A stretch of DNA of 64,000 nt from assembly GCA_030613055.1 (NCBI GenBank), contig JAUWMR010000004.1, positions 1 through 64,000 on the forward strand, read 5' to 3'. Each line of letters opens with the position of its first letter. Position 1 is the stretch's first letter. The stretch is from Desulfobacteraceae bacterium. Its GTDB lineage: Bacteria > Desulfobacterota > DSM-4660 > Desulfatiglandales > Desulfatiglandaceae. The notes beneath the pieces were generated by a model. That model saw only the letters and a list, made by a program, of their open reading frames with translations. It searched no databases and was not told the origin of the DNA. Positions 45,413-64,000 of the stretch are shown piece by piece. The translations under genes and the position numbers were made by a program.

Positions 45413-46126
45413 GTGCCCTTAGCAAATACGAAACTTATTGTTTTTTTAAAAATTGTAATCATCTTTTTCAGCGCCGGGATTTTAACATTTTTTGTTTCAA
45501 TTCTGGCTGGAGTAGATTTTATTAAAGACAGAGCTACAATAAATAAATTGGGGGAGATATTATCAGAAATATCTACTGAAATAGATGGTGGGATAAATAA
45601 AAGAATTTTTCGATTAGGACAAGCTCCAGCAACAAAATCCTATAAACAAGTATATTGTGTAGGCTTGGCAAGAGAATTGCTTGATATTTATTACATAGCT
45701 GAAAAGCCGAAAATAGTGTTAGGTACTCGTGACGAGGTGGATTATCAAAGAAAATCAACTCTTATATTAGGCTATGCAACTGAAAGAAATCTTACCAAAT
45801 TAATAGATGAAATAATACCACTTACGATGGAATTGCAAAATGCACATAATTTAATCAAAAAGACGCAAGAAAAGTCAGCCTGGAAAGAAACCGCTTATAT
45901 CATATTATATTTTGCTTTATTTGTGTTTTTATATGTACTGGTTTTTTACCGCTATCGCATTATATTTCATTTCAAGGATCGTCGAACCATAATAGACAGA
46001 CGAGTTTCTTCCATCGATCGTAGAATATTCGATAGCCCTCAATACATTGGCCGCCCTGAAAGGCGGAAACAAAAAGATAGAAGAAAGGGAGGGGAAAAGA
46101 GAATAAACACGCTTTATAAATTTTAA
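45413..46126 (+). CDS. AT-rich membrane protein with a basic DRR-repeat tail
   Basis: A GTG start follows AGAAAGGAATAAATT. The 237-residue product has a helix at about 9-32 and another at about 163-183, enclosing a 130-residue outer loop. The cytoplasmic tail repeats RRTIIDRR, SSIDRRIF and RKQKDRRKGG. Such DRR repeats are found at the ends of various bacterial membrane and regulatory proteins, but their role is unknown. Base composition is visibly more AT-rich than its neighbours, which suggests transfer. It overlaps the convergent hybrid kinase gene by 4 bases. Confidence 0.7.
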   Translation: MPLANTKLIVFLKIVIIFFSAGILTFFVSILAGVDFIKDRATINKLGEILSEISTEIDGGINKRIFRLGQAPATKSYKQVYCVGLARELLDIYYIAEKPKIVLGTRDEVDYQRKSTLILGYATERNLTKLIDEIIPLTMELQNAHNLIKKTQEKSAWKETAYIILYFALFVFLYVLVFYRYRIIFHFKDRRTIIDRRVSSIDRRIFDSPQYIGRPERRKQKDRRKGGEKRINTLYKF

Positions 46127-48360
46127 CCACTGTAAAACAGTTCAGCCAATAGCTGGCTTAATGTCATCATGTCGATCGGTTTAGTAAGATAACCTTTTAT
46201 TATTTGCCTTTCTTTATCATTTAAGCCATCCGCCCCTTTTTCATCATAGCCGGAAAGGAACACAATTTTGGCAGCGGGATCATACTCGAGCATGATTTCA
46301 GCGCACTTTGTTCCATCCATATCAGGCATATTTCTGTCCAGCAACACAACATTCGGTTGCCATTTTTTGAACTTAGCTACAGCTTGCTCCCCGCTGCTTG
46401 CTGAATCCGATTTGTATCCAAGACCCTCAAGCATATCTTCCATTGGCGTTAGGATTTCTGTCTCATCATCAACAATGAGGACCTTCTGGCCATTACCGTA
46501 TGCAATCCCCTTAATATCGACTTGTTGTTCGCTTTTTGCCCCTGTAGTATCAAGTTGAAAGTAAATTTTGAAGGTTGTCCCCTTGTCTGGCTCGGAAAAG
46601 ACACTTATTTCGCCTCCAATGTCTTTAATAATTCCATAAATTGTGGAAAGCCCAAGACCGGTCCCCATGCCACCAGGTTTAGTTGTATAAAAAGGGTCAA
46701 AGCATTTATTTTGTGTTTCATCGTCCATACCACAGCCTGTGTCAGAGACAATTACCTTAGCCTTATCTCCCTCTTGTTTTGCCTCTATCCTGAGCTTTCC
46801 TCCATCCGGCATGGCATCCCGGGCATTAGTGCAAAGGTTCATAAGCACCTGGCTCAGGCCAGCTCGTGTCCCTACAACAGGTAGTGATTCAGGAACCTCA
46901 ATGATGATATCTATTTTCTTATCAAAGGATTCTTTGATCAAATTGTATGTCTCTTCAATGACTTGGACAAGATTCACGATTCCGAAAGTTCCTTTATCCT
47001 CTTTTCTGGCGAAATCCATCAGATCCTTTACCAAACTGGCACCCCTTTTTGCGAAGCTGTCAATTCTCGCAGAAATCTCTTGTAATTCGGGGGAGTCTGT
47101 ATATTTCATCTGGATAAGTTGACTGTTAACAGTAATTCCAGAAAGTATGTTTCTGAAATTATGAGAGATACCGGATGCAAGGATCCCAAGGGACTCCATC
47201 CTCTGTGCGTGCTGGAGTATCTCCTCGATACGCTGATTTGGGTTCTCTTTAATCGCCTGGGGCAGGTCATCCATTCTGATGATCTCGTCCTTGCAAATGG
47301 TTGCGATATTCTCGATGGTCTTCCTGAGTTCGGTCACATTTCCTGGCCATTTGTAGGCCATGAACACTTGCAAAGCCGCTGAAGACACCTGAATGTTTCT
47401 CGGCGCGTTTTTGAGGAAATGATTTACAAGATGGGGCATAGCCCCAACCCTTTCTCTCAACGGAGGGATTTCGAGGGAAAACACATTCAAATAGTAATAA
47501 AGATCTTCATTAAATTGTCCTTCACTTACCAGTTTTGCAAGGTTCTTGCTGGTGGCAGCAATGAATCGTACATCAATCCTGATGGGTCTGCTCCTTCCGG
47601 TTCGCTCGAATTGCCCCTCCTTGAGCATTCGGAGGATCATAGCCTGGGTACTCAAAGGGATATTCCCTATTTCATCGAGATAGATAGTGCCACCATTGGC
47701 AATTTCAAACTGGCCTATTTTGCGCAAAGACTCATCGTTCAGATTATCTTCTTCATAACCAAAGAGTTCCCTTTCGAACAATTTTTCAGGGATGTCACTG
47801 CACAGTACTTCAACAAATTTCCTATGCTTGCGGCGGCTATGGTCGCAAATGTTCGTGGCAATAAGTTTTTTCCCTGTCCCAGGTTCCCCAAGAATTAGTA
47901 CCGGAGAATTGGTAGGCGCAACCATCATTATCTTCCCCAACACACGCCGCATAGTACTACTATACCCGATGATATTGGGGAAAAGATGCTGAACGTCTAC
48001 CTTTCCGAGTACTTCCGTAACCTGATCAAAGACTTGTGCAAAGTGCTGAAGTTCGTCAACCTGCCTCTCCTTTCTACCAACAATTTCGAGGCTTGAAATA
48101 GCCGGGTGTTCTTTCACCTCATTTATAAACTTTTTTACTGGTCCCAAAAGCATCCGCGAAACTATAAAACCGATAAGAAAAGCCAATGCAGCAACTGTTA
48201 TCGACCATGATAATATCGCCAAAGACGAATCGGTTCCCGTTTTCACATAATATTTGGTTATCTGGAAGGCCATAATTGCGGATATAAAGGCGAGTCCACC
48301 AAAGATAAACGGGACTATGATGTGAAGACTAACATAAAAACGAGTCTGTTTTATTTTCAT
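46123..48360 (-). CDS. Membrane-bound hybrid: AAA+ (sigma54-type, loop lost) - histidine kinase - receiver
   Basis: The 745-residue protein has two N-terminal helices (about 12-36 and 46-70) and a linker. A sigma54-activator-type AAA+ domain follows, with Walker A GEPGTGKK (158-165), Walker B TIYLDEIG, and WPGNVTELR. Next come a kinase domain with His400 in GISHNFRN and ATP-binding N, G1 and G2 boxes (NARDAMPDG, GMGTGLGL), and a receiver with Asp675. The GAFTGA loop is replaced by an acidic EEDNLNDES segment, and no DNA-binding helix is present. It should not activate sigma54. It is paralogous to the protein starting at 63380. Confidence 0.88.
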   Translation of the reverse strand: MKIKQTRFYVSLHIIVPFIFGGLAFISAIMAFQITKYYVKTGTDSSLAILSWSITVAALAFLIGFIVSRMLLGPVKKFINEVKEHPAISSLEIVGRKERQVDELQHFAQVFDQVTEVLGKVDVQHLFPNIIGYSSTMRRVLGKIMMVAPTNSPVLILGEPGTGKKLIATNICDHSRRKHRKFVEVLCSDIPEKLFERELFGYEEDNLNDESLRKIGQFEIANGGTIYLDEIGNIPLSTQAMILRMLKEGQFERTGRSRPIRIDVRFIAATSKNLAKLVSEGQFNEDLYYYLNVFSLEIPPLRERVGAMPHLVNHFLKNAPRNIQVSSAALQVFMAYKWPGNVTELRKTIENIATICKDEIIRMDDLPQAIKENPNQRIEEILQHAQRMESLGILASGISHNFRNILSGITVNSQLIQMKYTDSPELQEISARIDSFAKRGASLVKDLMDFARKEDKGTFGIVNLVQVIEETYNLIKESFDKKIDIIIEVPESLPVVGTRAGLSQVLMNLCTNARDAMPDGGKLRIEAKQEGDKAKVIVSDTGCGMDDETQNKCFDPFYTTKPGGMGTGLGLSTIYGIIKDIGGEISVFSEPDKGTTFKIYFQLDTTGAKSEQQVDIKGIAYGNGQKVLIVDDETEILTPMEDMLEGLGYKSDSASSGEQAVAKFKKWQPNVVLLDRNMPDMDGTKCAEIMLEYDPAAKIVFLSGYDEKGADGLNDKERQIIKGYLTKPIDMMTLSQLLAELFYSG

Positions 48361-48595: not shown

Positions 48596-51500
48596 TTATT
48601 CCTGGATGGGAAAGGTCGTTATGATTGCACTTACCTCTGCCTGAATGGCAAAATCATCGAAATAGACATTGGTGGAGCTATATCCAAAGGTATGCAGTCC
48701 TATTTCCGGTTGTCCGAAAATTCCGGAATCGGTTGTTGTGATAGCGTTTGTGCGAATGACGGCGTCTTGCTCCTTCCCTATTCCCAGACATTCAACAGAA
48801 CTATCCACTTCATTAACCGCATCCCATGCAACAAGTGTGAAGTAGTCGTTACCTGCCTCGGTTTCCTCGACCTCATCAGGAGGCCAATTTACCCTGCTCG
48901 GATTGCGTGGGTTCCCAAGTTTTTTATAGTCTAATGGGTTATTATTCGGTGTTCCGTAACCGTTGACATCCCCGTAATAGGCCCTTAAGTAATTATCGCG
49001 GACTGAAAATTCCGTGGCCTGGGCTACTGTTAATGCTCCAAGGACTAAAAGTGGTTCTGCGTTCTGAAAGGATCCGGATACATTGTTGAGCATAATTATC
49101 CCTGCGGCATCACCGTCACCCCAGGATCCTGATGAGAGAATGGGGGTTCCATGAACAGTACCTTTTGCACCGCTTGTAGTGCCTACTATACAGTCCCCGT
49201 CCACCATGGTCGCGCCACTGCCGTTAACAAAACCCAGGGATGCTGCCTCTCTTACCCTGATCAAGAGTGTAGCCTCATTGATAGGAAAATTTTCATAGAT
49301 CTTTACATCATCTATATACCATCCATCTCCGATTTTAGCGGGATCAGAGCACAGCCGAAATCTTACTACTATTTTTTCTGGATTACCCGCGCCCAGATAA
49401 CTACTGAGGTCGAGTTCTACTGGTACTGAATTCGTCACCCCGCTTAGATCGCCCGTATAGGTTGCGATTTCCTGCCAGACCCCATCGTCAACTGAGATCT
49501 CAACCAATCCTTCAGACTCGTCGATCTCATACCAATGCCAAAAGCTTAGTTTGGTTGGTGTCGCTCCTGAAATGTCTATAATCTGAGATTCTAAAGCCGC
49601 TTCTACAGTAACCCCGGAAGGGCTACACGTCCAGCATGTGGTACCACTATGACATCTTGTTCCGGCATACTCCCATGGGATTTCAGCCGTCCAATCCGGC
49701 GTTGTGCCGCTTTCCATGTCATCAGAGAAGAAAACGGGACCTGTCAGATACTTATAGGCCAACCATGTTTTTTCCGAACCTGAATCTGTCTGTTGCCACA
49801 GGACAATCATGGGCCAGTCATTCTGCGGTACGAAATCATCCGGGATACCATCCGTGATACTATCTGATTCCCGAACATAAGCATTATCTCCCCGCACAAA
49901 GGAAAGCCCATAGCTGTCCCCGTTGTTTTTCTGTCTGAAAGACAAGCCCGCCATATAGTATTCCGGAAAATCAGTACCGTTGATTTGCCACGGTGGTAGC
50001 GGATCAAACCCAACTTTTACCTGAGCGTCATAGCTCAAATAATGGCCCGCGATCACATGAGCGGAGGCCAGATCAACATTTGTTTTTGCCCAATCAAGGG
50101 TAATCAGGCTCCCCTTGTCATCTGTGGAATCTGCTACATCACCTATCCCCGTAACCTTTAAGGCCTTATCGCCGCCGGTTATCTGAATTTCATGTGAACC
50201 TAATGTTGAATCATGCCAGTGTTCTTTATTTTCAAAGGTGTCATGAAACTCTTCCTTTTCCCCGGTGGAGGAGGTGGGAAGAGGGACATGATAAACGATT
50301 TTCCGCTGTGCCTGCATGGGCCCCTGTCCGAAGATGCCGGTTGAGTGAAGCTTTACAAATTTCTGCAAGACAATATCAGTATTTGGTTCTACATCGAAAT
50401 CGGACATATTGGGGTCAGCGGGGTCATCAATGCCGGTCAAGCAATTGTTTGCATGATCAACCCTTTCATAGGAATAGACATGGCCTTTGACATTGATGGT
50501 ACCATTAAGGAGCGGGAAGGCACCGGCGTAACCATTTGAGTCAAGGTAAAGGTCGCCCCCTTTGATCACCGTTTGGGTATTATTGCTGCTTATGGCAACG
50601 GAAAGGACATCCATACCCGCTGGGATGGGTGGTATAGGAGCGCTCATAGTGAAGGTGACGTTTGGCCCACTCTGGGTAGCAGAATCGCAGTTGAAAAATT
50701 TCGACCCGATCTTCAGCCTTCCGGGAAGCGTCAACCCCGGGGGAAAACCACCCGGCACCACTGTGTTCAGGGTTGTGGTTGGTGGAGTTGTCGGAGACCC
50801 GGACTTGAAGTAGTAAGGGTAAACCTGGAGCTTAAATTGTCCGTTGTCATTGAGCAGGGTATATGTCTGCTGCGTATGCATGGCCACCAGCTCGCTGTCT
50901 TTGGCGGTCTCATCGGCGGCATTAAGATACCTGCTCGCAGAATACCGATAGCCGGATTCAGCCAAAAAATATGCCCTTTCAGAACTATTCCCCCCCACCT
51001 GAGAAAAAATTGATGTGCTGGTCAGGGACACCATGGCTGCCCCTATCGAGGAAATAACCACCATGGTCACGATAAGTCCGATCAGGACACTTCCCTCTCT
51101 GTTATCCGATAACGTGTGACAGACAATATTATTGCGGCGTCTGACAACGGAAAATATCATGCGGGTGATCAACCAGGAAACAATAAGGATGAGCGGAATC
51201 GCAGCAGGGAAATATAGCATAAAAAAAGCAACCCCTACAAAAGGTAAAAGAATAAATTGAGCCGCAAAGCATGCCCATGCCCGGCCTTCGATCTTATCGG
51301 CAATGAATGGCCCTATAGCGTAATATGCCCTTACCACGGCCTTTCCCCCATTCCATGTCAGGAGGCATCTGTCCCTGAATTGTCTCAGCAACAGGACCAC
51401 AGGGTGATCCTGTTCACCATAAGCGGCAGTGGCAACAAAACACCCGTAGTTGGATTTCGTAGGAGGGCTGGTGGTTGGAGGAGCCCCTCCATAATTCTTG

Positions 51501-52018
51501 GTATTTCTCGGGTGAACCGTCGTGGATAAGCTTATATTCCCCATGCCGCTTTCAGAGCGGCTCAGACTAAGATCGATAACGATCACGGACAACAGGCGAA
51601 TGTCAGATCCATCCCACGCATCAGTCCCCTTATAATAAGACAGAGTAAAGCTGTCTACATTGTCTATAAGTACGTCACCCCCACTCGGTAACTCCGTCTG
51701 GGTTGGTTGTAAATTGGAAAAAATTTTTATTGTGGTTCCAACTTTAGCTATCGCGTGCCGACCGGAGAGATTGTCATAGATAATATAGGGATCAGGCTGT
51801 GTACTGTCCTTAGCCGAAATATTCGTAATCACCATCAGTTCACGGCTCATGCGGGCCATGGCCAGTTGGGACTTTTGGGCCATATGCGCGTTTTCCTTTG
51901 TGAACAGGTACCCTTTTGTTCCTGTAATAATTCCCATTCCCGCAATGGCCGATAAAATGCCCAGGATTACCATGGTAACGATAATCTCGATTAGCGTAAA
52001 TCCGGATTCTATGTTCAT
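48596..52018 (-). CDS. Fused MSHA-type minor pilin: prepilin + CFI-box + second pilin + adhesin domains
   Basis: One uninterrupted frame of 1140 residues combines parts seen as separate genes elsewhere. Residues 1-170 are a prepilin (leader MNIESG, then FTLIEIIVTMVILG; PilW/MshO-like). Residues 192-245 hold a CFVATAAYG box, followed by two hydrophobic segments (about 250-289). A second pilin-like N-terminus (GSVLIGLIVTMVVISSIGAAMV) lies at 309-330. A beta-rich MshQ-like region (about 585-1140) is interrupted at 763-910 by a jelly-roll-type domain. An internal ATG at 51160 could start the second half separately. It lies 26 bases after the MshD-like gene. Confidence 0.8.
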   Translation of the reverse strand: MNIESGFTLIEIIVTMVILGILSAIAGMGIITGTKGYLFTKENAHMAQKSQLAMARMSRELMVITNISAKDSTQPDPYIIYDNLSGRHAIAKVGTTIKIFSNLQPTQTELPSGGDVLIDNVDSFTLSYYKGTDAWDGSDIRLLSVIVIDLSLSRSESGMGNISLSTTVHPRNTKNYGGAPPTTSPPTKSNYGCFVATAAYGEQDHPVVLLLRQFRDRCLLTWNGGKAVVRAYYAIGPFIADKIEGRAWACFAAQFILLPFVGVAFFMLYFPAAIPLILIVSWLITRMIFSVVRRRNNIVCHTLSDNREGSVLIGLIVTMVVISSIGAAMVSLTSTSIFSQVGGNSSERAYFLAESGYRYSASRYLNAADETAKDSELVAMHTQQTYTLLNDNGQFKLQVYPYYFKSGSPTTPPTTTLNTVVPGGFPPGLTLPGRLKIGSKFFNCDSATQSGPNVTFTMSAPIPPIPAGMDVLSVAISSNNTQTVIKGGDLYLDSNGYAGAFPLLNGTINVKGHVYSYERVDHANNCLTGIDDPADPNMSDFDVEPNTDIVLQKFVKLHSTGIFGQGPMQAQRKIVYHVPLPTSSTGEKEEFHDTFENKEHWHDSTLGSHEIQITGGDKALKVTGIGDVADSTDDKGSLITLDWAKTNVDLASAHVIAGHYLSYDAQVKVGFDPLPPWQINGTDFPEYYMAGLSFRQKNNGDSYGLSFVRGDNAYVRESDSITDGIPDDFVPQNDWPMIVLWQQTDSGSEKTWLAYKYLTGPVFFSDDMESGTTPDWTAEIPWEYAGTRCHSGTTCWTCSPSGVTVEAALESQIIDISGATPTKLSFWHWYEIDESEGLVEISVDDGVWQEIATYTGDLSGVTNSVPVELDLSSYLGAGNPEKIVVRFRLCSDPAKIGDGWYIDDVKIYENFPINEATLLIRVREAASLGFVNGSGATMVDGDCIVGTTSGAKGTVHGTPILSSGSWGDGDAAGIIMLNNVSGSFQNAEPLLVLGALTVAQATEFSVRDNYLRAYYGDVNGYGTPNNNPLDYKKLGNPRNPSRVNWPPDEVEETEAGNDYFTLVAWDAVNEVDSSVECLGIGKEQDAVIRTNAITTTDSGIFGQPEIGLHTFGYSSTNVYFDDFAIQAEVSAIITTFPIQE

Positions 52019-52044: not shown

Positions 52045-52476
52045 TTATTTTGAAAAAAGCGCTGTTAGAGACTGGACGCCCGAGGTAATAACTACCTTTA
52101 ATATTCTGTTTTTACCAGACGTGTCCGCAACCTCGTTCCCTTCCTGAAAAGCTATATATGCCGTCTGTATGGAATACTGCCCGTAATAAGGAACATTTTC
52201 TTCAACATTACCATTTTCAATGAAGCTTTTGAAATTTTCAAGGGGGCTGTTGTCTGTTATCAGCAACCTCTTGTAGTCCGCGGTCATCTTTTCCATCACC
52301 TCGCTGAGAGAAAATTCCTCCTGAACCATGATGACCGGTTCGGCGCTACGTTTTAGGCTTGTTCCCATAAACTCGACCAGGATAGTACCCAGGAGGGCTG
52401 CCACTACGAGCGTGATTAGTACTTCTATAAGAGTAAACCCTTTTCGATCAAGCTTGTCCATTGGTAGTGTGTTCAC
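52045..52476 (-). CDS. Pseudopilin, MshD/PilV-like
   Basis: The 143-residue product has a class III leader ending DKLDRKG, then FTLIEVLITLVVAALLGTIL, the processing site and helix of type IV prepilins (Glu at position 5 after cleavage). The C-terminal part is short. It is a minor pilin by size and place. Its start overlaps the stop of the upstream GspH/FimT-like gene, and the large fused pilin gene follows, consistent with an mshC-D-O order. Confidence 0.8.
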   Translation of the reverse strand: MNTLPMDKLDRKGFTLIEVLITLVVAALLGTILVEFMGTSLKRSAEPVIMVQEEFSLSEVMEKMTADYKRLLITDNSPLENFKSFIENGNVEENVPYYGQYSIQTAYIAFQEGNEVADTSGKNRILKVVITSGVQSLTALFSK

Positions 52477-52949
52477 GGAATAAAACCTGTATTCGGGGTT
52501 ACGGTGATCTGCTCGCTTTCCTCTCCGGATAATATTGTGATGGTGAGGACTGCAGCAAGTTTGTTTGCCTCCAATGCACCTTCGTCAAGGTGGGGTGTTC
52601 CCCAGGAATTAAATGATATATCAAACCCATCCATAGTCAGGTCTTTAGCGGACAGGTCAACCGTATTGCTATCTTCACCCGGGAGCAGGACCTTGTTATT
52701 TTTGTTCCCGTCTTTAAAAAGCCAGTAAGACGTGCCATCGCAGTGAATTCCCCATACGATATCTGAATTGATAGACCGGCTTTGGGCATATCGCAGGTGA
52801 GTTTTGGTGACCTCTCCCTGTGCGGCCAGGTCGGGATTGCTGATGACCATGCGGGCGGCAACGACAGCACCGATTATGCCCACGATAAGCATTACAACGA
52901 TAGCTTCAATCAACGTAAAGCCATAATTTTTGATGAGACTGGTTTTCAT
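52473..52949 (-). CDS. Pseudopilin, GspH/FimT (MshC)-like
   Basis: The 158-residue protein starts with a 10-residue leader ending NYG followed by FTLIEAIVVMLIVGIIGAVVAAR, a canonical prepilin peptidase site. The remainder has a GspH-like ending (ITVTPNTGFIP). It would be a minor pilin priming or tipping the fibre. It is first in the minus-strand arm of the pilus locus. Its upstream region (52950-53735) contains AT-rich probable promoter sequence and a dispersed repeat. Confidence 0.82.
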   Translation of the reverse strand: MKTSLIKNYGFTLIEAIVVMLIVGIIGAVVAARMVISNPDLAAQGEVTKTHLRYAQSRSINSDIVWGIHCDGTSYWLFKDGNKNNKVLLPGEDSNTVDLSAKDLTMDGFDISFNSWGTPHLDEGALEANKLAAVLTITILSGEESEQITVTPNTGFIP

Positions 52950-53735: not shown

Positions 53736-55616
53736 TTGCCAGCAAATAACGAAATTTCTTCCACTGAAAGGCTTCTTGGTTTGATTCGAGGCGAAGATAA
53801 CGGTGTTGAGAATATTGACACACTTTTATCTAATGAGTTCCCAGACAAACGGAAAGCGCGTTCAGCAAGGGTTTGGCAACTAAAAAAGAAAATTACGGTT
53901 GGAATAGATTTCGGTCACCAATATCTGAAATTGGTGAAGGTCAGACAAGTATTAGACGACCAATGGAATCTTCTTGATTACAGGAATATACCCTTAGATC
54001 CCCGGATTCCTAAAGACAGCCCGGAATTCACCCGCTTTTTTAGAGCTACCCTAACTGGATTTTGTGGGTCTCCAGGAAAATGCAAGCTATGGAGCACAAT
54101 AACTTCGGATCAAATCGAAATCCGGCATATTCTAATACCTAAGGTCCCGAAAAAGAAGATTTCCAATGCGGTTTATTGGACACTCCAAAAAGAAGTCCCC
54201 TTTGACAAAAATGATACCATTTATGACTTTGAAATTTTGGGTGATAAATTAAAAGGGGGTATCCCGAAAACTGCAGTCCTTGCCTATATAGTTCCGAAAC
54301 AAGAGGTCCAACAAATAATATCTCTTTTCACCCGGTGTGGTTTCCTTCTGACAGGGCTGTCCCTTCCCCCGTTTGCCATAGCAAATCTATTGAGAACCGG
54401 CCTGATAAAAAACAACAACGAATCAGTATGCAGTCTATATGTTGGCAGGAATTATTCGTGTATTGATATCTTTTCATCCGGAAATCTGGCTCTAACCCGC
54501 CGCATAAAGACCGGGATGCACAGCATGATTGAAGGCATTATAGAAAAGATGAAGGAGAGCCAAAACAGGGTCTCTCATAAAGTGCCTGAAGGAGAAGATG
54601 GTTCCGGTCCGTTGACTACTGATGAACAAACGCCCATAAACATGAAACAGGCCGAGAGAATATTTTTTTCCATCAGCGAAGATTTCCCACCTCTCAGCGA
54701 AAATGAACCGGGATTTTATCTTAAAAAGACAGAGATAGGGAGGATGCTCCTTACTGCGTTAAATCGTCTGGTCGGGCAGATAGAAAGGACTTTTGAGTAT
54801 TATTCCTTAAGTTCCGAGAATAACAGTGTGAGTAGAATTTACACAGTTGGTGAAATCAATTCCTTCAAGCGATTGGTTCACTATATTTTCGAGCGAGTGG
54901 GAGTTCCCTGTTACACAGTCGATCTCCTTGCAAGTGGGATCCCTTTTGAGGGTAAAGTCTTACCTCCGGATTCAATTTTCGAGAGTTCTTCTTTTACTCC
55001 TGCCGTGGGAATGGCAGTGTCCCACGACTCTCGGACCCCTAATTTACTTTTTACCAATATATACAAAGAAAAGAAGACAAGCATTAAACGTATCAATACT
55101 GGCATCTTCATGGTATTTTTGGCAATAATGACAATTTGCATGGGTATTTTTTTGTGGCAAGACAATATTGGAGAGGTCAAAAAGTCTGAAATCGCTTTAC
55201 TTACCAAGAAGTTAGAGCAATACTTTCCCAGAATGGATCAAGAATTCATCGTACAACTTAAAGAAAAAACCAAACAAAAAACGAGTACTTTGAAGGAATA
55301 CGGCAAAAAATACCTGGCCATAGCAGTAATCGGAGAATTATCACGTATGACCCCGTCTAATATCCGTTTGCTGGGTATTCAACTGCGTCTGGGCAAAATT
55401 CCGGTAGATGATAAAAAAAAGGCGCCCCCAAAAAACCTGGTTTTGGAAGGTATGGTATTTGGGAGTCACCAGAAGCTTGAAACCTCTCTGGCATCATATT
55501 TACTTAGACTGGCGAACAGTCCTCTTTTCAGCCAACCTACTATCCATAAGAGCACACCTGGATACTATAAAGACAAAAGGGCTTTGCAGTTTACAGTCTA
55601 TATTAAATTGTTTTAA
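53736..55616 (+). CDS. PilM-PilN fusion protein (MshI-like) of type IV pilus assembly
   Basis: The 626-residue protein begins with a 50-residue extension. An actin-like PilM/GspL core follows, with VGIDFGHQYLKLVKVR near residue 55 and ATP-site segments later. After about residue 450 there is one membrane helix (IFMVFLAIMTICMGIFL) and a PilN-like periplasmic domain. PilM and PilN usually interact as separate proteins. The start is a TTG at 53736 preceded by AAAGGAATAATT; no ATG fits. It leads the plus-strand pilus operon, followed 21 bases later by the PilO-like gene. Confidence 0.85.
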   Translation: MPANNEISSTERLLGLIRGEDNGVENIDTLLSNEFPDKRKARSARVWQLKKKITVGIDFGHQYLKLVKVRQVLDDQWNLLDYRNIPLDPRIPKDSPEFTRFFRATLTGFCGSPGKCKLWSTITSDQIEIRHILIPKVPKKKISNAVYWTLQKEVPFDKNDTIYDFEILGDKLKGGIPKTAVLAYIVPKQEVQQIISLFTRCGFLLTGLSLPPFAIANLLRTGLIKNNNESVCSLYVGRNYSCIDIFSSGNLALTRRIKTGMHSMIEGIIEKMKESQNRVSHKVPEGEDGSGPLTTDEQTPINMKQAERIFFSISEDFPPLSENEPGFYLKKTEIGRMLLTALNRLVGQIERTFEYYSLSSENNSVSRIYTVGEINSFKRLVHYIFERVGVPCYTVDLLASGIPFEGKVLPPDSIFESSSFTPAVGMAVSHDSRTPNLLFTNIYKEKKTSIKRINTGIFMVFLAIMTICMGIFLWQDNIGEVKKSEIALLTKKLEQYFPRMDQEFIVQLKEKTKQKTSTLKEYGKKYLAIAVIGELSRMTPSNIRLLGIQLRLGKIPVDDKKKAPPKNLVLEGMVFGSHQKLETSLASYLLRLANSPLFSQPTIHKSTPGYYKDKRALQFTVYIKLF

Positions 55617-55637
55617 AATCGAAAAAAGGGATTGTTA

Positions 55638-56153
55638 ATGTTACCAAGGCAAAGCATCCGTTATCTTCTGATATGCGGGGTGGGGATATTAAGTTTTATC
55701 CTATTAGCTATATACCCCCACTACAAGAAATTGGATCGTATGAATATGGAAATAAAAAGTACGAGGTCCCAAATAAAGGAACAGGAGATCCTTTATCCCA
55801 TTGGCAAAAACATTTTGGACGAGTTGATGGCCAAGGAAACCTGGGACCTCCCTTTCCCCGAAAAGGCCAAGCTTGGCAGGGATAAAGCGGCCGAAATTTC
55901 AGGCATCTTTAAAGAAATAGCCCGAAAGAGCAATCTCGAGCCTGTTAATATCGTCCCGGATGTTAAGTCCTTAACCGAACAGACCGGGCTTTTATCCGTA
56001 GACATAATCGTACGGGGGGGCTTTTTTGATTTTCGTAAATTTTTCATCCATATGGGAGAATTACCATATCTTGAGCAAATAGAAGAAGTTCAGATTCAAC
56101 CAGTAGAAGCGGGCCGGGAATTCAAGCTAAAGATTTGGCTGGCCCTAAAATAA
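55638..56153 (+). CDS. PilO-like pilus assembly protein (MshJ-like)
   Basis: The 171-residue product has a single N-terminal helix (YLLICGVGILSFILLAIYP), then a coiled segment and a ferredoxin-like PilO fold. The phrase VRGGFFDFRKFFIHMGELPYL matches the typical PilO core. It would bridge the inner-membrane PilMN part to PilP and the secretin. I chose the ATG at 55638, after AAGGGATTGTTA, over a TTG two codons earlier. Confidence 0.8.
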   Translation: MLPRQSIRYLLICGVGILSFILLAIYPHYKKLDRMNMEIKSTRSQIKEQEILYPIGKNILDELMAKETWDLPFPEKAKLGRDKAAEISGIFKEIARKSNLEPVNIVPDVKSLTEQTGLLSVDIIVRGGFFDFRKFFIHMGELPYLEQIEEVQIQPVEAGREFKLKIWLALK

Positions 56154-56258
56154 TGACGAACATCAAAGAGGAAAAAGTAAGAGATAAATGTGCTGTTTAG
56201 CGTGTAAGCTGTGCTATAAGGTAATATTAACGGGTCTAATCTTCTGGAGAATGCTAAA

Positions 56259-56771
56259 ATGAAGAGGCGAGAAAAAATAATTCTCGGTCTTATGGCTCTT
56301 GTAATTGCATATGGCTTTTACGCCCTTTTTTTTTCTTCACCTCACAAGAAGACCGATATTTATGCTGGAAAGAAATCAGAAGAGTTAAGCAGGATAATTA
56401 CTGAAATTTCCTTGGATTTGAGTAAAAGTGGTCCTACGGAAGAGGATAATTATGTCATAGCGAGAGCCAAGAGCGATTGGGTTAAGGATCCTTTCCTTGA
56501 AAAAAAGGCTTCTGTAACCAAGGAGATACAAAAGCCAAAGGAACCTGAGGTAGTCATACCTAAGTTCACATTCGCTTATTCCGGGTTTATGAAGATGGGA
56601 GAGCTAAAAATCGCTATTGTAAACGGCCTGGAGTATAAAATTGGAGAAGAGGTAGTACCGGATAAATGTGTTATTCGGGAAATCTATCCAAACAAGGTCA
56701 TTATCAGAATAAAGGGAATAAAAGGGAAAAAGGGAGAAATCATCGTCCCTTTAGTGGAGGAAGTATTATAA
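56259..56771 (+). CDS. PilP-like pilus assembly protein (MshK-like)
   Basis: The 170-residue protein has an N-terminal membrane helix (IILGLMALVIAYGFYALFF), a flexible middle, and a C-terminal beta domain with FAYSGFMKMGELKIAIVNGLEYKIGEEV. That pattern is typical of PilP/GspC homology-region domains that dock onto the secretin. It is the only such candidate between the PilO-like gene and the secretin, which supports the role. 105 bases separate it from the PilO-like gene. Confidence 0.75.
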   Translation: MKRREKIILGLMALVIAYGFYALFFSSPHKKTDIYAGKKSEELSRIITEISLDLSKSGPTEEDNYVIARAKSDWVKDPFLEKKASVTKEIQKPKEPEVVIPKFTFAYSGFMKMGELKIAIVNGLEYKIGEEVVPDKCVIREIYPNKVIIRIKGIKGKKGEIIVPLVEEVL

Positions 56772-56792
56772 ATTTCTAATTAGGCGGTTTGT

Positions 56793-58361
56793 ATGTTAAA
56801 TGTAATTAACCATATGCATTTTATGAAAAAAAATATCTGGTTGGTTTTTGCAATTTCATTCCTGGTATTTACCCTCGGCTGTGCCGGTAAAGAGACCATA
56901 AAAAAAGACAAGTTCTTTGAAAAATGGAAGGTCATGGCCGAAAAGTCCAAGGGATATTCCCCCTCTAAAAAAGTGCGACCAACTAAACTCCCTGAGGAGA
57001 AAAAAGAAGCCGTTTTGGAAAAGGAGGATCAGGTTGCCCCTGAAAAACCTCTTCCCACGCAAAAGATATCACTGAGCATGCACGACATGGATGTCGCTGT
57101 GCTTCTTCGTTCCTTAGCCAAGATCGCTGGTCAAAACCTAATGATAAATGCGGATGTCAAGGGCAAGATCAATATGAATGTGGAAGCTGCCCCTTGGGAC
57201 CAGGTATTTCTCGGTATTCTGCGGACACAGGGACTAACCTATAAATGGGAGGGAGATATTATCCGTATTGTCACCGTGGAAGATATGGAGCATGACCTTA
57301 AAATAGAGAACATTCAAAAGAAACGAAAGGCCCAGGAAGTCGAATTGAGAAGGGTTCAGCCTCTTATGACCAAAGTTGTAAATATTGATTATTCGGATGC
57401 GAACAAGGTAAAGGGAAACCTGCAGGAATTCCTGACAAAAGACACAAAAGGTAAGCCTCGGGGATCGATTATGGTGGACGAACATACCAACTCGGTCATT
57501 ATACAGGCAATCAGAGATGATATTGCGAAAATGATCCCCCTGATCCAAGAGCTTGATAAACCCACGCCCCAGATACTAATAGAGGCCAATATCATCGAAA
57601 CAACCAGGGACACAGCCCGGGAGTTAGGAATTCGATGGGGAGGGCTGTATCACACCACACAGCAAGGTGAAGACAAAAAATATTGGGTCGGTCCCGGGGC
57701 GAACACCGGAGGGGTCATGGGACAGTCTCTGAATACAGGCATTGACCCCACTACCGGAACGGCTGCCAATTTCCCGGCCAATTTTGTGACGACGGGAGGT
57801 CTTGGCTTTGGCCTGGGTCTTGTGGGCGCGGAAATCGGAAAGTATTTATTAAATATCGAGCTTTCGGCCCTTCAGGAAGCGGGAAAGCTCAATATCCTTT
57901 CATCCCCGTCAATCACAACTCTTGATAATCAGACGGCTTTTACCGAAAATGGGGAAAAGATCCCCTATGTATCCACAGACAAGGAAGGAAACAGGGAAGT
58001 AAAATTTGAGGAAGCCGTTCTCAGACTGGAGATCAAACCCCATGTAATTGAAGGGAAATATCTTAGAATGGAGATTACGATCATAAAGGACGAAGTCGAT
58101 ACATCCCGCACCGTAGATGGGAATCCTTTTATTATAAAGAAACAGACGAAAACTTGTCTAATCGTTCGAGATGGTGAAACAATTGTCATCTCAGGGCTTA
58201 CCAGGCAAAGGCGGTTTGGATCGAAAGACGGAATACCCGGCCTCATGAATATTCCCCTATTTGGTTATCTTTTTAAAAGAGATAACAAGGAGAACACAAT
58301 GGAGGAAGTGCTTATATTTTTAACTCCTCGTATCTTGAAAGAAAGGGCTGCGGATCGATGA
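56793..58361 (+). CDS. mshL: Outer-membrane secretin, lipoprotein type (MshL/PilQ-like)
   Basis: The 522-residue protein forms the outer-membrane channel. It has a lipobox (VFTLGCAG) after a signal sequence, an N0/secretin-TonB domain (QKISLSMHDMDVAVLLRSLAKIAGQNLMINADVKG), an N1-type domain, and a secretin core ending with LRLEIKPHVIEG, VISGLTRQ and IPLFGYLFK. The lipoprotein form is the MshL type. The ATG at 56793 follows GGCGG; an ATG ten codons later is possible. Confidence 0.93.
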   Translation: MLNVINHMHFMKKNIWLVFAISFLVFTLGCAGKETIKKDKFFEKWKVMAEKSKGYSPSKKVRPTKLPEEKKEAVLEKEDQVAPEKPLPTQKISLSMHDMDVAVLLRSLAKIAGQNLMINADVKGKINMNVEAAPWDQVFLGILRTQGLTYKWEGDIIRIVTVEDMEHDLKIENIQKKRKAQEVELRRVQPLMTKVVNIDYSDANKVKGNLQEFLTKDTKGKPRGSIMVDEHTNSVIIQAIRDDIAKMIPLIQELDKPTPQILIEANIIETTRDTARELGIRWGGLYHTTQQGEDKKYWVGPGANTGGVMGQSLNTGIDPTTGTAANFPANFVTTGGLGFGLGLVGAEIGKYLLNIELSALQEAGKLNILSSPSITTLDNQTAFTENGEKIPYVSTDKEGNREVKFEEAVLRLEIKPHVIEGKYLRMEITIIKDEVDTSRTVDGNPFIIKKQTKTCLIVRDGETIVISGLTRQRRFGSKDGIPGLMNIPLFGYLFKRDNKENTMEEVLIFLTPRILKERAADR

Positions 58362-58388
58362 CCTTAAAGGCTTTTCCGGCACAAAAAA

Positions 58389-59942
58389 ATGGATTACTTC
58401 AGGCTTCTTAACTTAGACAGGGAACCCTTTTCCAATTCACCTGATCCCGACTTTTTTTTCCACTCCCGGCAGCATATCCAATGCATGCAAAAAATAGAAC
58501 TCGCTGTCCATCTCCGGAGAGGATTGAATGTCGTAATTGGGGATGTTGGGACAGGGAAAACTACCCTTTGCCGTCGGCTTATCCAAAAATTTTCAAACGA
58601 CGATAAAGTGGAGACCCATCTCATCCTCGATCCATATTTCAGTACTCCACGGGAATTTCTATCCACCGTGGCGGGCATGTTTGAAAAACATAAGACCGGA
58701 AACGGAACCAGCGACTGGCAACTCAAGGAAATCATCAATAAGTATCTCTTTCATCAGGGCGTGGATGATGAAAGGATAGTTGTCTTGATTATTGATGAAG
58801 GCCAAAAACTTCCTGATTTCTGTCTGGAAATCTTGCGAGAATTTCTCAACTACGAAACGAATGACCAAAAACTGCTTCAAATTATCATCTTTGCCCAGAA
58901 AGAATTTGATGCATACCTTGAAGATCATAAAAATTTTTCGGATCGTATCAATTTATACCATGTCTTAGGCCCGTTGAGTTTCCGAGAAACGAAATCCATG
59001 ATACAGTTTCGTCTTGAAAAAGCGATTAAAGGTAGTCATAGCCCTTCGTTTTTCAGTTTCCTGGCATTACGGGCCATATATCGGGCCACAGAGGGATACC
59101 CAAGGAGAGTCATTAATCTATGTCACCGGATCATTTTGACGTTAATCATTCAAAATCGTTCCAAGGCCGGCCGGTCCTTAGCCCGCTTCTGTATCAAAAA
59201 AGGATCTTTTGAACAGCCAAAGAAATGGCACCCGATCAGGATAGGGGTTTTGTCTTGTTTATTTTTGTTTTTGTTGGTTTTTGCACTGATACCTGAGCAC
59301 CTCAGGAGCCTGATACCATTGAAGGGAGAAAGATCCGAGTTTGCTCTTGAGAAATTACAGCATGATAAAGAGATTACTGTAATAAAAATTCCTATAATAA
59401 AGGTGCCTGAGACAAAGATAGTTGAGACAAAGGTGCCCGAGGCAAAGGTGCCTGAGATAAAAATTCCTATAACCTTGGGACAGATGACCACAATAAAAAA
59501 TGATACATTGGGGGAAATGATTCTTAGGGTTTACGGGGTTTATAGTCGTAAGTATTTAAATATCATGATAAAATCCAACCGGCAAATAAAGAATCCTGAC
59601 CTGATAGAACCAGGCCAGGTGATCAGTTTTCCGGCTAAGCCATGTAAAATCGGCACATCATCATTGAAAAACTGGTGGGTGCACATAACCACCAAAGAAC
59701 GACTCGAAGATGCCTACCGGTTCTTGAAAATCAATTCAGGGAAGGTGCCTAAATTGGCAATCGTCCCTTGTTGGAATAGTCGTGAGGGCTTGAAGTTTAT
59801 GATATTATGGAAGAGATGTTTTACTGATGAACAATCTGCTCAAAAGACCCTGAAGAGGCTACCTTCTTCGCTCGTTTCAGGGGCAAAGATACAGGCTAAA
59901 TGGGCCAAAGATACAGTATTTTTTGCCAATCCTGTTTTTTAA
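58389..59942 (+). CDS. mshM: ExeA/MshM-like AAA ATPase with LysM and SPOR-like C-terminus
   Basis: The 517-residue protein begins with an ExeA/GspA-type ATPase: Walker A GDVGTGKTT (51-59) and LIIDEGQKL. It crosses the membrane near residues 282-300. Outside are a linker of five-residue KVPE-type repeats (about 330-360), a LysM-like domain (about 362-415), and a C-terminal SPOR-like domain. This arrangement fits insertion of the secretin through the cell wall using ATP and peptidoglycan contact. It follows mshL by 27 bases. Confidence 0.88.
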   Translation: MDYFRLLNLDREPFSNSPDPDFFFHSRQHIQCMQKIELAVHLRRGLNVVIGDVGTGKTTLCRRLIQKFSNDDKVETHLILDPYFSTPREFLSTVAGMFEKHKTGNGTSDWQLKEIINKYLFHQGVDDERIVVLIIDEGQKLPDFCLEILREFLNYETNDQKLLQIIIFAQKEFDAYLEDHKNFSDRINLYHVLGPLSFRETKSMIQFRLEKAIKGSHSPSFFSFLALRAIYRATEGYPRRVINLCHRIILTLIIQNRSKAGRSLARFCIKKGSFEQPKKWHPIRIGVLSCLFLFLLVFALIPEHLRSLIPLKGERSEFALEKLQHDKEITVIKIPIIKVPETKIVETKVPEAKVPEIKIPITLGQMTTIKNDTLGEMILRVYGVYSRKYLNIMIKSNRQIKNPDLIEPGQVISFPAKPCKIGTSSLKNWWVHITTKERLEDAYRFLKINSGKVPKLAIVPCWNSREGLKFMILWKRCFTDEQSAQKTLKRLPSSLVSGAKIQAKWAKDTVFFANPVF

Positions 59943-60179
59943 TTTCCGTGACTACTCACGTAGTCAGGCTGAAGGTGTTTAGACTGAGTAGTTACTAATT
60001 TCCTAAAGGGCATTGCCTGTAACCGAAAATTCTATCTTTAATTTGTGATACTAATACTAATGGTAATTTGAGAATAAAAGGTAAAAGGGAGAACTGGAGG
60101 GAAGTGGCCGCCAATTTTTGACTTACTTCGCTAATATTGGTAATATCGTGCCACTGATATAAGGGGGTATAGGAATTTA
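59943..60179. other. Intergenic gap inside the pilus operon
   Basis: This 237-base gap before the GspE-like gene has no open frame. It contains GTGACTACTCACGTAGTC and ACTGAGTAGTTAC, which can pair, and an AT-rich stretch that may carry a second promoter. No binding motif is clear. Confidence 0.4.
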
Positions 60180-61886
60180 ATGAAAAAAAAGTTAGGAGAG
60201 ATGTTAATAGAGAATGACCTGCTAACTGAAGAACATCTAAGAAATGCCCTGGAGTCTATGAAGAACTCAAATTTTAAGCTGGGCGAGCTTTTAGTTCGAC
60301 AGGGAATTCTTAGGGAGTCTGAGCTTGTAGATATACTCTCAAAGAAGCTGAATATTAAAAAATATCATCCGAGCAAGTACCCTCTTGAACTCAGCCTGGC
60401 AGGTCTGATTTCGGCAGATATTGTCCAAAAGTATCAAGTGGTTCCTCTAAAGAAAAATAGTAACTTACTGACGATCGGCATGACTGACCCTACGAATATA
60501 AGGACTCTGGATATCGTCGAAGCGATGACAAATACCGAGGTTGAGCCTGTTATCTGCACGGAGCAGCAATTTAACGAACAGGTCAGAAGTCTTTACGGCG
60601 CATATTCAGATTTAGATGACGTTCTGGAGAGTATGCAGCAAGTCAAGTATGACGATACGGATACTGAGATAGAAATGGAGACAACCAATGAAGATATTCA
60701 AGTGAGTTCACTCCAGGACATGGCTGAAGAGGCCCCTATAGTTCGGTTAGTAAATTCCATAATTTCTCAAGCCATTCGCGAAAGGGCAAGCGATGTGCAT
60801 ATCAGTCCGGAAAAGAACTATGTCCAGGTCAGGTTTCGAGTGGATGGGAAGCTCCATGATATCCCTGTACCGCCCAAGTCCTTATTTCTGCCAATCATCT
60901 CCCGGTTAAAGATCCTGTCAAATATGGATATTGCCGTATCAAGAGCCCCCCAGGACGGAAGATTTACGGTTAAAATCCAAAACAGGGAAGTTAATATAAG
61001 GGCCTCTACCATACCGACAATTTATGGTGAGAATCTGGTCCTTCGCCTGTTGGATTCGACGACCGGCGGTTACTCCCTGGACCAGTTAGGGATGTCTCAG
61101 GGGGATATGGATAAAATAGAATTCTTAATTAACAGACCTTACGGCATGATTCTGAGCACCGGGCCTACGGGAAGTGGCAAAACTACAAGTTTATACTCAA
61201 TGCTGAAGAAGATCAACAGACCGGACACAAATATTATCACCCTGGAAGATCCTGTGGAATACAGGATAGAAAAAATCCGTCAGGTGCAGTTGAACCGGAA
61301 GGCAGGTATGACCTTTGCCGGCGGGCTCAGATCTATACTCCGACAGGATCCTGACGTTATAATGGTAGGGGAAATCAGGGATGCTGAAACAGCCGCTATC
61401 GCCGTTCAATCGGCCCTGACCGGCCATCGAGTCCTGAGCACGGTGCATACTAATGACGCGGCCGGGGCTATCACGCGCCTTATTGATATGGGTATTGAGC
61501 CCTTTCTTGTTTCTTCCGTATTACTTGTTTCATTTGCCCAGCGTTTGGTCAGGACGATTTGCCCCAACTGTAAAGAGAATTACACGCCACCTAAGGAAGC
61601 CTTAGCCTATTTTGGAATGGAGCATTTGAAAAAGGCTAAATTCCAGAGGGGAAAGGGATGCTTTAATTGTCTAAACACCGGCTACAAGGGGCGAACCGGC
61701 ATATTTGAAGTGTTGGCCATCGATGAAATGGTCCAGGAGATGATCGTGAAAGGGAGATCCGCTCACGAAATCACTCGCGCTGCCACTGAATCCGGAAATT
61801 TCAGAAGCCTTAAAGAAGATGCTGCTGATAAGGTACTAAATCAAATCACGACTTTGGAAGAAGCAGCCTCTGCTGTCATGAGTTAA
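60180..61886 (+). CDS. mshE: Pilus extension ATPase, GspE/PilB family (MshE-like)
   Basis: The 568-residue protein powers fibre assembly. It has two N-terminal T2SSE-type parts (MLIENDLLTEEHLRNAL), a linker, and a C-terminal ATPase with Walker A GPTGSGKTTSLY (about 323-334), the Asp box LEDPVEY and Walker B DVIMVGEIRDAETA. A four-cysteine zinc element (CPNCKENY ... GCFNC) lies near residue 465. The start at 60180 is an ATG with AGGAATTTA upstream. It ends 2 bases before the GspF-like gene. Confidence 0.93.
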   Translation: MKKKLGEMLIENDLLTEEHLRNALESMKNSNFKLGELLVRQGILRESELVDILSKKLNIKKYHPSKYPLELSLAGLISADIVQKYQVVPLKKNSNLLTIGMTDPTNIRTLDIVEAMTNTEVEPVICTEQQFNEQVRSLYGAYSDLDDVLESMQQVKYDDTDTEIEMETTNEDIQVSSLQDMAEEAPIVRLVNSIISQAIRERASDVHISPEKNYVQVRFRVDGKLHDIPVPPKSLFLPIISRLKILSNMDIAVSRAPQDGRFTVKIQNREVNIRASTIPTIYGENLVLRLLDSTTGGYSLDQLGMSQGDMDKIEFLINRPYGMILSTGPTGSGKTTSLYSMLKKINRPDTNIITLEDPVEYRIEKIRQVQLNRKAGMTFAGGLRSILRQDPDVIMVGEIRDAETAAIAVQSALTGHRVLSTVHTNDAAGAITRLIDMGIEPFLVSSVLLVSFAQRLVRTICPNCKENYTPPKEALAYFGMEHLKKAKFQRGKGCFNCLNTGYKGRTGIFEVLAIDEMVQEMIVKGRSAHEITRAATESGNFRSLKEDAADKVLNQITTLEEAASAVMS

Positions 61887-61888
61887 AG

Positions 61889-63109
61889 ATGCCCAGTTTT
61901 TCTTATCAGGCCATAAATGAAATTGGCAATAATGTCTCCGGCGTCATTGAAGCCGATTCGCAGACAATTGTTAATAATATGCTGGTTGAGCGTGGCTACA
62001 TCCCTTCCAAAATTACAATGAAAAGGGAAAGCGCGCAGTTGTCTGCCTGGACCGGCATCATAACAATGTTTGGCCGGGTCAAAGCCCCTGATCTGATCAT
62101 TTTTACTAAACAATTTCGAACAATGATCCGGGCCGGGGTACCAATGTTAACCATTTTGAAGGTACTGGAGGATCAATCCGAGAGGCCGATTCTGAAAAAG
62201 ATTGCTGCTTCCTTGTCACAGGACATCAATGAGGGTGCAAGTCTTTATGATGCCTTTAGAAAGCATCCGAAAGTATTTAGTCCTTTATACTGCAGTATGT
62301 TGGAGGCAGGTGAGGCCACCGGGGCTCTGCCAGATGTATTAGAGCGTTTGACATATATCATAGAGCACGAACACAAAATCAAGTCGGAGGTCAAAGCCGC
62401 ACTTCAATACCCGATTATTGTACTTACCTTACTTTGCACCGCTTTTTTTGTCCTCTTGACCTTTGTCATCCCAAGATTCGCACACATATTTGATAAAAGC
62501 GGGGTAGCGCTTCCCATTCCCACCAAAATATGTATTTTTCTATATCAATTTCTGGCCAATTATTGGCTCCTGATATTCGGATCTGTTATTGCAGGGGGAT
62601 CGGTTTTACTTTATTATCTCAAGACAGAGCAGGGAAAATTTGTTCGGGACACTATTTTTTTGAATCTCCCCATAGTTGGTAAGCTTTTCAAAAAGGCTGC
62701 AATGTCCCGCTTTGCCAGCATATTTGCCATACTGCAATCCAGCGGTGTGTCCATACTTGAATCTTTAACGATTCTGTCCGGAACCATTGGTAATACCGCG
62801 ATCTCACGAGAATTTGGCCGGGTAAGTGAAGGCCTTGAGGAAGGTCGTGGCATTTCCGAACCCCTGAGATCTGCTAAATACTTTACACCCATCGTTGTAA
62901 ACATGATTGCCATAGGCGAAGAATCCGGAAATCTTGCTGAAATGCTAAGCGACATTTCGGAGCATTATGATTCAGAGCTGGAATATGCCATGACAAAACT
63001 ATCAGAGTCCATAGGACCTATTTTGACGATTGGCCTGGCAGCCGTTGTGGGCTTTTTTGCACTTTCAATTTTTTTACCCATGTGGGATCTTACAAAGATG
63101 GTAAGGTAA
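61889..63109 (+). CDS. mshG: Inner-membrane platform protein, GspF/PilC family (MshG-like)
   Basis: The 406-residue protein has the two repeated GspF cytoplasmic domains (FTKQFRTMIRAGVPMLTIL and FASIFAILQSSGVSILESL) and about three membrane helices, including FVIPRFAHIF-type and the C-terminal AAVVGFFALSIFLPMWDL. It works with the ATPase to insert pilins. It lies 2 bases after mshE and closes the visible operon. Confidence 0.93.
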   Translation: MPSFSYQAINEIGNNVSGVIEADSQTIVNNMLVERGYIPSKITMKRESAQLSAWTGIITMFGRVKAPDLIIFTKQFRTMIRAGVPMLTILKVLEDQSERPILKKIAASLSQDINEGASLYDAFRKHPKVFSPLYCSMLEAGEATGALPDVLERLTYIIEHEHKIKSEVKAALQYPIIVLTLLCTAFFVLLTFVIPRFAHIFDKSGVALPIPTKICIFLYQFLANYWLLIFGSVIAGGSVLLYYLKTEQGKFVRDTIFLNLPIVGKLFKKAAMSRFASIFAILQSSGVSILESLTILSGTIGNTAISREFGRVSEGLEEGRGISEPLRSAKYFTPIVVNMIAIGEESGNLAEMLSDISEHYDSELEYAMTKLSESIGPILTIGLAAVVGFFALSIFLPMWDLTKMVR

Positions 63110-63115
63110 CCCTAA

Positions 63116-63379
63116 CGTTGCAAAAGTCGAGGGTGCTGAAGATCCGCGGCGTCGAGGGTGAAGCCGTAGTATTTTACTGCGAACCCTTGACAACAAAGGA
63201 GATTCGGCGCCCTCGGCTTTCCCGAAGGGTAAACAACATGGTGATTTGACAGGCCTTGCTCGAATGCACATGCAGTGAATTCCTGCAAGCGGGGTGACAA
63301 CGGGACGAAACACTGTAGTTTAGGGGTTTTTAATAATGCTAACCATGTTGTTTATGCAACAGTAGGGGTAACTCTTGTA
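63116..63379. other. Non-coding stretch between the GspF-like gene and the AAA+ gene
   Basis: It contains a GC-richer block with short minus-strand frames lacking binding sites, then the 14-base word GTTGTTTATGCAAC (63347-63360), which also occurs at 43803-43816. It resembles a dispersed element rather than a gene. No terminator is clear. Confidence 0.4.
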
Positions 63380-64000
63380 ATGAAGCATCGCAGATACATA
63401 ATCAGCATTTATATTTTCCTTCCCTTGATTTTTGCCGGGATCGCCCTGTTGACTACCCTTGTTTCTTACAACATTACTATTTATTGTTTAAAAAAGGGGC
63501 TAAATCCTGAATTGCATATGGTATTTTGGGCATTGGTGCTGGTATTCTTTTCAGCAATAACAGGCCTTCTGATTGTAAGATTTATTATTGATCCCATGGA
63601 GCGATTTATTAAAAAGACGAACAAACTTGGAGTGCTAACTAATGCTGCCACAGAACATGAACCTATGAAAAAAGATGAAATTACCCGCTACACCAAAATG
63701 TTTGCCAGGATTACCGATTTTTTAGGCCGGGTTGAGGCCCGGGAGTTATTTCCGGATATCGTTGGTCATAGTAAAATAATACGGGCAGTGTTTTACCAGA
63801 TCATGAAAGTTGCTCCTACAGATTCAACTATTCTAATCCACGGGGAGACTGGTACAGGAAAGGAACTTTTTGCAAAAAGCATCTATGCGCACAGCCTGCG
63901 TAAAGAAAAGCCTTTTGTAACAATTAATTGCGCGGCAATTCCGGAAGGGCTTCTGGAAAGCGAACTGTTTGGACATGAAAAGGGTGCTTTTACAGGAGCA
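63380..64000 (+). CDS. Membrane-bound sigma54-type AAA+ protein, N-terminal part (runs off the window)
   Basis: The first 207 codons are visible. Two membrane helices (about 7-30 and 47-69) are followed by a linker with [17 protein letters not shown] and a sigma54-activator AAA+ domain with Walker [18 protein letters not shown] and an intact GAFTGA loop at the window edge. The layout is the same as that of the protein at 46123-48360, and the two align through the AAA+ start, so they are paralogues. The rest, including any kinase or DNA-binding part, is outside the window. A spaced AGGGG precedes the ATG. Confidence 0.85.

Follow-up and report, generated by a model that had tools for sequence, protein, structure and literature searches.

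The sigma54 activators (bEBPs), among them NtrC, PspF and FleQ (PF00158), are textbook sigma54 machines, for which a DNA-binding domain is usual, not universal. In PspF, we take R162 to be a putative arginine finger. TyrR, HupR, DhaR, VpsR and YplP regulate transcription and have a DNA-binding end. These are known bEBP homologues without the sigma54-contact motif GAFTGA (PMC3162934). R168 of PspF is described as a putative arginine finger (PMC2745333, PMC7175178), and the R168A variant still forms hexamers and is defective in ATPase activity (PMC2745333). Nothing direct was found in the open-access literature on histidine kinases with a fused bEBP domain as input, or on membrane bEBPs of pilus loci. 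In Pelobacter carbinolicus the expression of the Msh pilin varies with growth mode, and the Msh pilin passages of that paper do not deal with regulators of this kind (PMC3543383).

The window analysed here, a stretch of 64,000 nucleotides from a Desulfobacteraceae bacterium (contig JAUWMR010000004.1), contains a gene in which a sigma54-type AAA+ domain is joined to a hybrid histidine kinase (hereafter the hybrid; Table 1). The gene closes a minus-strand group that includes two pilin-like genes and is located at one end of a pilus gene cluster, whereas a canonical paralog lies at the other end. The layout of the assembly genes in between is presumably that of an MSHA-like type IV pilus. The pilus context and the canonical paralog, as well as the parallel pilus-ATPase fusion described below, are absent from an earlier note on this DNA. 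The minor-pilin-like protein of the minus-strand group (1140 amino acids) seems to have two pilin-type N-termini, at its start and at about residue 310, with a CFI-box-CTERM domain in between. Elsewhere in the window (40107-42899, minus strand), a molybdopterin oxidoreductase carries an N-terminally fused nitrate-reductase-delta (chaperone-like) domain (PF02613 at 64-172).

Table 1. Features of the hybrid gene and its surroundings, in positions of the window.
Feature	Position	Strand	Description
Convergent two-TM protein	45413..46126	+	237 aa; periplasmic segment, tail rich in repeated DRR; candidate signal partner
Hybrid gene	46123..48360	-	745 aa; membrane anchor, pseudo-sigma54 AAA+, histidine kinase, receiver; based on open frame, Pfam and G019 ortholog with same order
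Receiver domain	46126..46485	-	residues 626-745; phosphoacceptor Asp 675
HATPase_c kinase core	46525..46980	-	residues 461-612
DHp/HisKA	46981..47226	-	residues 379-460; H-box SHNFRNIL, His 400; H-box identical in four own-genome hybrid kinases
Sensor II Arg position	47332..47334	-	T343; Asn in ortholog
Arginine-finger positions	47491..47511	-	N284 and Y290, where R and R are expected (PspF R162 and R168)
Walker B Asp-Glu	47671..47676	-	residues 229-230, kept
GAFTGA position	47731..47748	-	residues 205-210 = DNLNDE; length unchanged, no indel, clean sequence
Walker A GEPGTGK	47869..47889	-	residues 158-164, kept; customary Glu after Walker A replaced by Lys
Two TM helices (loop ~15 residues), then HAMP-like stretch	47986..48360	-	residues 1-125; common to membrane bEBP family (alignment A1, profile matches)
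Minor-pilin-like gene	48596..52018	-	upstream of hybrid, same strand; N_methyl / GFxxxE motif; C-terminal part also beside ortholog
Pilin-like (GspH-type) gene	52473..52949	-	
Type IV pilus assembly genes	53736..63109	+	PilM-like, two small proteins (second T2SSB-like), secretin (PilQ/MshL type), AAA_22 ATPase, MshEN-T2SSE (MshE-like) ATPase, GspF-like
Canonical paralog	63380..64000, on to 64699 of contig	+	same membrane module, AAA+ with GAFTGA, Fis-type HTH

The hybrid is encoded by a single uninterrupted frame, with the ATG at 48360 and the stop at 46123. Pfam analysis yielded matches that all exceed the cut-off, namely Sigma54_activat (PF00158, residues 130-296, 8.9e-54), AAA_lid_14 (302-377), HisKA (393-455), HATPase_c (499-604) and Response_reg (627-737). 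With domain matches of this strength chance is no concern, and since 35 PDB sequences match, there is no doubt about the fold. Together with two hydrophobic segments, this order bears out the earlier note, which had placed the AAA+ domain between membrane helices and a complete histidine kinase plus receiver. The H box, the N and G boxes (G1/G2) and the receiver Asp and Lys are all present, and the protein is by these sequence criteria a hybrid histidine kinase, for which autophosphorylation and phosphotransfer are predicted. An HTH was not found in the hybrid by Pfam; the kinase and the receiver stand at that end instead.

Within the AAA+ domain, Walker A and Walker B have been retained and GAFTGA has been lost without any indel, both as had been noted earlier. 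The loss is meaningful, since G, F, T and the last A of the motif are each present in 56/56 canonical membrane relatives. The arginine-finger region had also been described as kept, which does not hold, because the putative fingers are replaced by Asn and Tyr where canonical relatives and activators of the same genome have Arg. The R162 position is R in 56/56 canonical membrane relatives and the R168 position in 55/56, with an alignment gap in the remaining one, whereas the sensor II position is R in 53 of 54 residues. The switch Asn position, which is L186 in the hybrid, is occupied by N in 54 of the 56 relatives and by S in 2. All 14 other activators compared from the same genome carry R at the two finger positions and at sensor II. 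With the fingers, the sensor II Arg and the switch Asn gone, the AAA+ domain of the hybrid would more likely be a nucleotide-binding pseudo-ATPase than an active ring; at the level of sequence it shows the pattern of a pseudo-AAA+, with the hydrolysis residues lost and the ATP-binding motif kept. Compared with sigma54 activators, to which it is about 40% identical within its own genome, the hybrid shares the AAA+ core, the lid and the Walker motifs, but it lacks GAFTGA, the arginine fingers, the sensor II Arg and the DNA-binding domain and has a kinase fused to it. Of the four features of a functional bEBP that were examined (AAA+ domain, GAFTGA loop, arginine fingers with sensor II Arg, DNA-binding domain), only the Sigma54_activat AAA+ domain was found. 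It resembles TyrR, HupR, DhaR, VpsR and YplP in having lost the sigma54-contact motif; unlike them, it is a membrane protein with a hybrid kinase in place of the DNA-binding end.

An ortholog of the hybrid was identified in G019 (C324), a genome from another genus of the same family, as an intact frame of 742 amino acids with 65% identity and the same domain order. It is the only ortholog among the 85 genomes of the order, and homologues with the same architecture that keep GAFTGA, which the earlier note had named as evidence against its proposal, were searched for there without a find. A pattern search of genome contigs for the hybrid architecture returned only remote kinases, whereby a search of this kind does not prove absence. 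As the architecture is represented by two sequences in total, the comparison of the orthologs is a modest test. In the G019 protein the GAFTGA position reads DDSAGD, and R162 and sensor II are lost, whereas R168 is kept. A sequencing error or frameshift as the cause of the loop loss is unlikely and was rejected, since the ortholog in its intact frame also lacks the loop, R162 and sensor II, and the frame of the hybrid is clean. The dN/dS between the two genes is about 0.24 (Nei-Gojobori) for the whole gene and likewise for the AAA+ core. The frame, AAA+ core included, is under purifying selection, and the domain is thus still selected as protein. The stretch around the GAFTGA loop has 2/12 identical residues between the orthologs versus an AAA+ median of 8/12 and is the lowest 12-residue stretch of the domain. 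To judge from the two sequences compared, the loop has been freed from constraint. The acidic stretch that had been reported in place of GAFTGA is indeed observed in the hybrid, but a conserved new acidic motif was rejected on account of the 2/12 residues that the orthologs have in common.

The neighbors of the G019 hybrid match those in the window, with a convergent two-TM gene and a pilin-like gene. For the convergent two-TM protein, no Pfam family was found. Its only homolog (62% identity) is the one in G019, there too beside the hybrid, and it is absent from the other 83 of the 85 genomes. Since it is present in exactly the two genomes that have the hybrid, this protein would be the best candidate for the signal partner of the hybrid.

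Membrane-anchored sigma54 activators form a widespread family, to which the gene from 63380 onward and the genes of loci L037, L048, L057-L069, L072-L098 and L108-L128 belong. The profile of their membrane module (A1), in which the hybrid is itself a row, matches the hybrid at 1.7e-48, and the family was found in 6/85 genomes of the order, in 61/155 of another order and in 45/146 of a third one. In pairwise comparison the hybrid is 41-45% identical to members of the family over residues 2-373. The identity to the paralog in the window, which lies about 15 kb away and for which the ORF list has a more upstream start, the GTG at 63275, is 41% over residues 3-373. With the membrane bEBPs of pilus loci (63380 onward, L037, L048, L062) the hybrid shares the two-TM and HAMP-like module, the AAA+ domain and the location at a pilus locus. 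Unlike the hybrid, these members, of about 440-480 amino acids, keep GAFTGA, the fingers and the Fis-type HTH. Almost all proteins found with the profile have lengths of 440-500 amino acids. L047, L104, L105, L037 and L128 were considered as fusions and rejected; they have ordinary activator HTH ends, and their excess length is upstream open frame.

Where the surroundings were read, the canonical genes come after a gspF-like gene, and a pilin often follows. The stretches of up to 700 bases downstream were scanned for sigma54 -24/-12-like sites with a score of at least 0.87. Strong sites were found downstream of canonical members at 36/52 loci (69%), compared to 7.7% on the other strand, 2.6% in Markov shuffles and 0/49 in upstream stretches. 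In the genome under study, which encodes sigma54 itself, such a site (TGGCATTATATATGCA) is located at 65290-65305 of the contig, about 85 bases before the pilin ATG. As a single site it scores 0.87, a value that other stretches of the contig reach not infrequently, and it carries weight through the pattern seen across the family. Given the downstream sites, the pilins and the encoded sigma54, the canonical paralog would most plausibly be a sigma54 activator bound to the membrane with the pilin as its target, and the site is a candidate promoter element of the pilin. After the pilin, a 133-amino-acid receiver-like protein is encoded (L042:6041-6442; 66040-66441 of the contig), whose phosphoacceptor region reads IVGNTREND and which is possibly a pseudo-receiver.

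In a quick tree of the AAA+ domains, in which the inner and nesting nodes have moderate support (84-93), the two kinase fusions form a clade (SH-aLRT 100) within the membrane-bEBP family, with a stem length of 1.01 versus a median end branch of 0.32. Both fusions have other canonical members as their neighbors in the tree, which does not support that the hybrid arose recently by copying of the paralog in the window. The hybrid fits the family by its N-terminal two-TM/HAMP-like module and by the nesting of its AAA+ domain, with the intact motifs and the HTH missing, and judged by sequence it descends from the pilus-linked membrane bEBPs. Over DHp-CA-receiver, its kinase half is 53-56% identical to the hybrid kinases L002-L005, four proteins of the same genome with which it has the H-box HNFRNIL in common, and by the same kind of evidence derives from the PAS-hybrid-kinase family of this genome. 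In these four kinases, as read from their sequences, the DHp is preceded by other sensor regions (PAS-type and others), which take the place of the AAA+ domain. At the AAA+/kinase joint, at about residue 376, NQRIEEILQHAQRMES resumes the EAQLQHAQKM(E/Q)S of the own-genome kinases. From the position of the joint, the pseudo-AAA+ would occupy the place of the kinase's sensor region, connected via a probable helix.

Fusions of a similar kind were found in another family of the same phylum, where seven genomes from two genera (family f97; G346, G540-G545; L099-L103, L106, L107) encode a membrane pseudo-bEBP joined to MshEN-T2SSE in frames of 927-1001 amino acids. Like the hybrid, these proteins have a degenerate AAA+ that belongs to the same membrane family, carry a new output domain and have lost the sensor II Arg (7/7). 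Unlike the hybrid, they have a secretion-type ATPase as output, GAFTGA is only altered (GSF/GSY/GSH/GTFTGA), Walker B is changed from DE to HQ in 6/7, and the fingers are mostly kept. A canonical membrane bEBP is encoded elsewhere in the genome in 6/7 cases; the seventh genome, G541, is 77% complete. For a single origin of the kinase and the pilus-ATPase fusions the AU test gave p = 0.54, whereby one clade was slightly better and both branches are long. The architecture of the hybrid is rare, occurring in two genomes (among 85 of the order), and its unusual origin and the parallel fusion elsewhere add to its interest.

The explanation that we favor, with a probability of roughly 0.55, is that the hybrid is a membrane bEBP paralog whose AAA+ domain has turned into a pseudo-AAA+ input and assembly module that gates a pilus-linked hybrid kinase, the DNA-binding end having been replaced. 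Very likely the hybrid does not act on sigma54, which its pseudo-AAA+ would be unable to remodel. The domain would bind ATP, and there is likely little or no hydrolysis; as a point against this explanation, the kept Walker A and B may permit residual hydrolysis, and R168 is retained in the ortholog. Serving the kinase as input and assembly module, the pseudo-AAA+ would pass the state of the membrane, of a partner or of the nucleotide from the lid helix to the DHp helix, and a gating of the kinase by nucleotide or partner state is its most likely use. Most likely, the hybrid senses the state of the pilus system of its own locus, with the two-TM protein and/or the canonical membrane bEBP as candidate partners, and its output would be phosphotransfer to its own receiver and then an onward relay. 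The earlier note had proposed an ATPase ring reused for signalling. Reuse for signalling is the simplest reading, since action on sigma54 is hardly possible and the AAA+ domain sits where related kinases carry PAS-type sensors, but the active ring in this proposal does not agree with the absence of the fingers, the sensor II Arg and the switch Asn.

Rather less probable is a mixed ring, in which the membrane and pseudo-AAA+ modules of the hybrid would join the canonical bEBP, which they would poison or tune; the state of the kinase would in this way directly control sigma54-dependent pilin transcription. Homologous membrane and AAA+ modules are encoded at one locus, and both proteins are also present in G019; hetero-oligomers of paralogous bEBPs are known from HrpR/HrpS (PMC7057263) and from VnfA paralogs (PMC9542535), and the pilin that follows the canonical gene has the sigma54-like site ahead of it. 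A mixed assembly of the two proteins is therefore possible, but they are just 41% identical, and the tree groups the hybrid with other canonical members and not with the paralog in the window. That the hybrid is an ordinary membrane hybrid kinase, with a decaying AAA+ domain as a mere spacer, is unlikely. Although several catalytic residues are lost and of all domains the lid differs most between the orthologs (59% identity), the AAA+ core (64% identity) is close to the kinase core in identity as well as in dN/dS, and Walker A and B are intact in both orthologs. A still-active AAA+ ring that works on another substrate, with fingers from different residues or from the canonical paralog, would agree with the kept Walker motifs and the R168 of the ortholog, but it is very improbable, as R162 and sensor II are lost in both orthologs and the pore loop, unlike a substrate-contacting loop, is not conserved between them.

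Under the favored explanation of a pseudo-AAA+ that gates a kinase, the hybrid lineage would be an example from nature of an AAA+ motor turned signalling pseudo-enzyme, with a live paralog in the locus and a parallel pilus-ATPase fusion elsewhere. We tentatively suggest that pilus-linked membrane bEBPs may repeatedly yield catalytically dead copies, which keep the membrane/ring module, gain new outputs and form assemblies together with the live activator; the state of pilus assembly and of the phosphorelay might then be read in one membrane AAA+ complex that controls sigma54-dependent pilin transcription. The hybrid lineage also makes a connection of pilus assembly with the transcription of pilin accessible to experiment.
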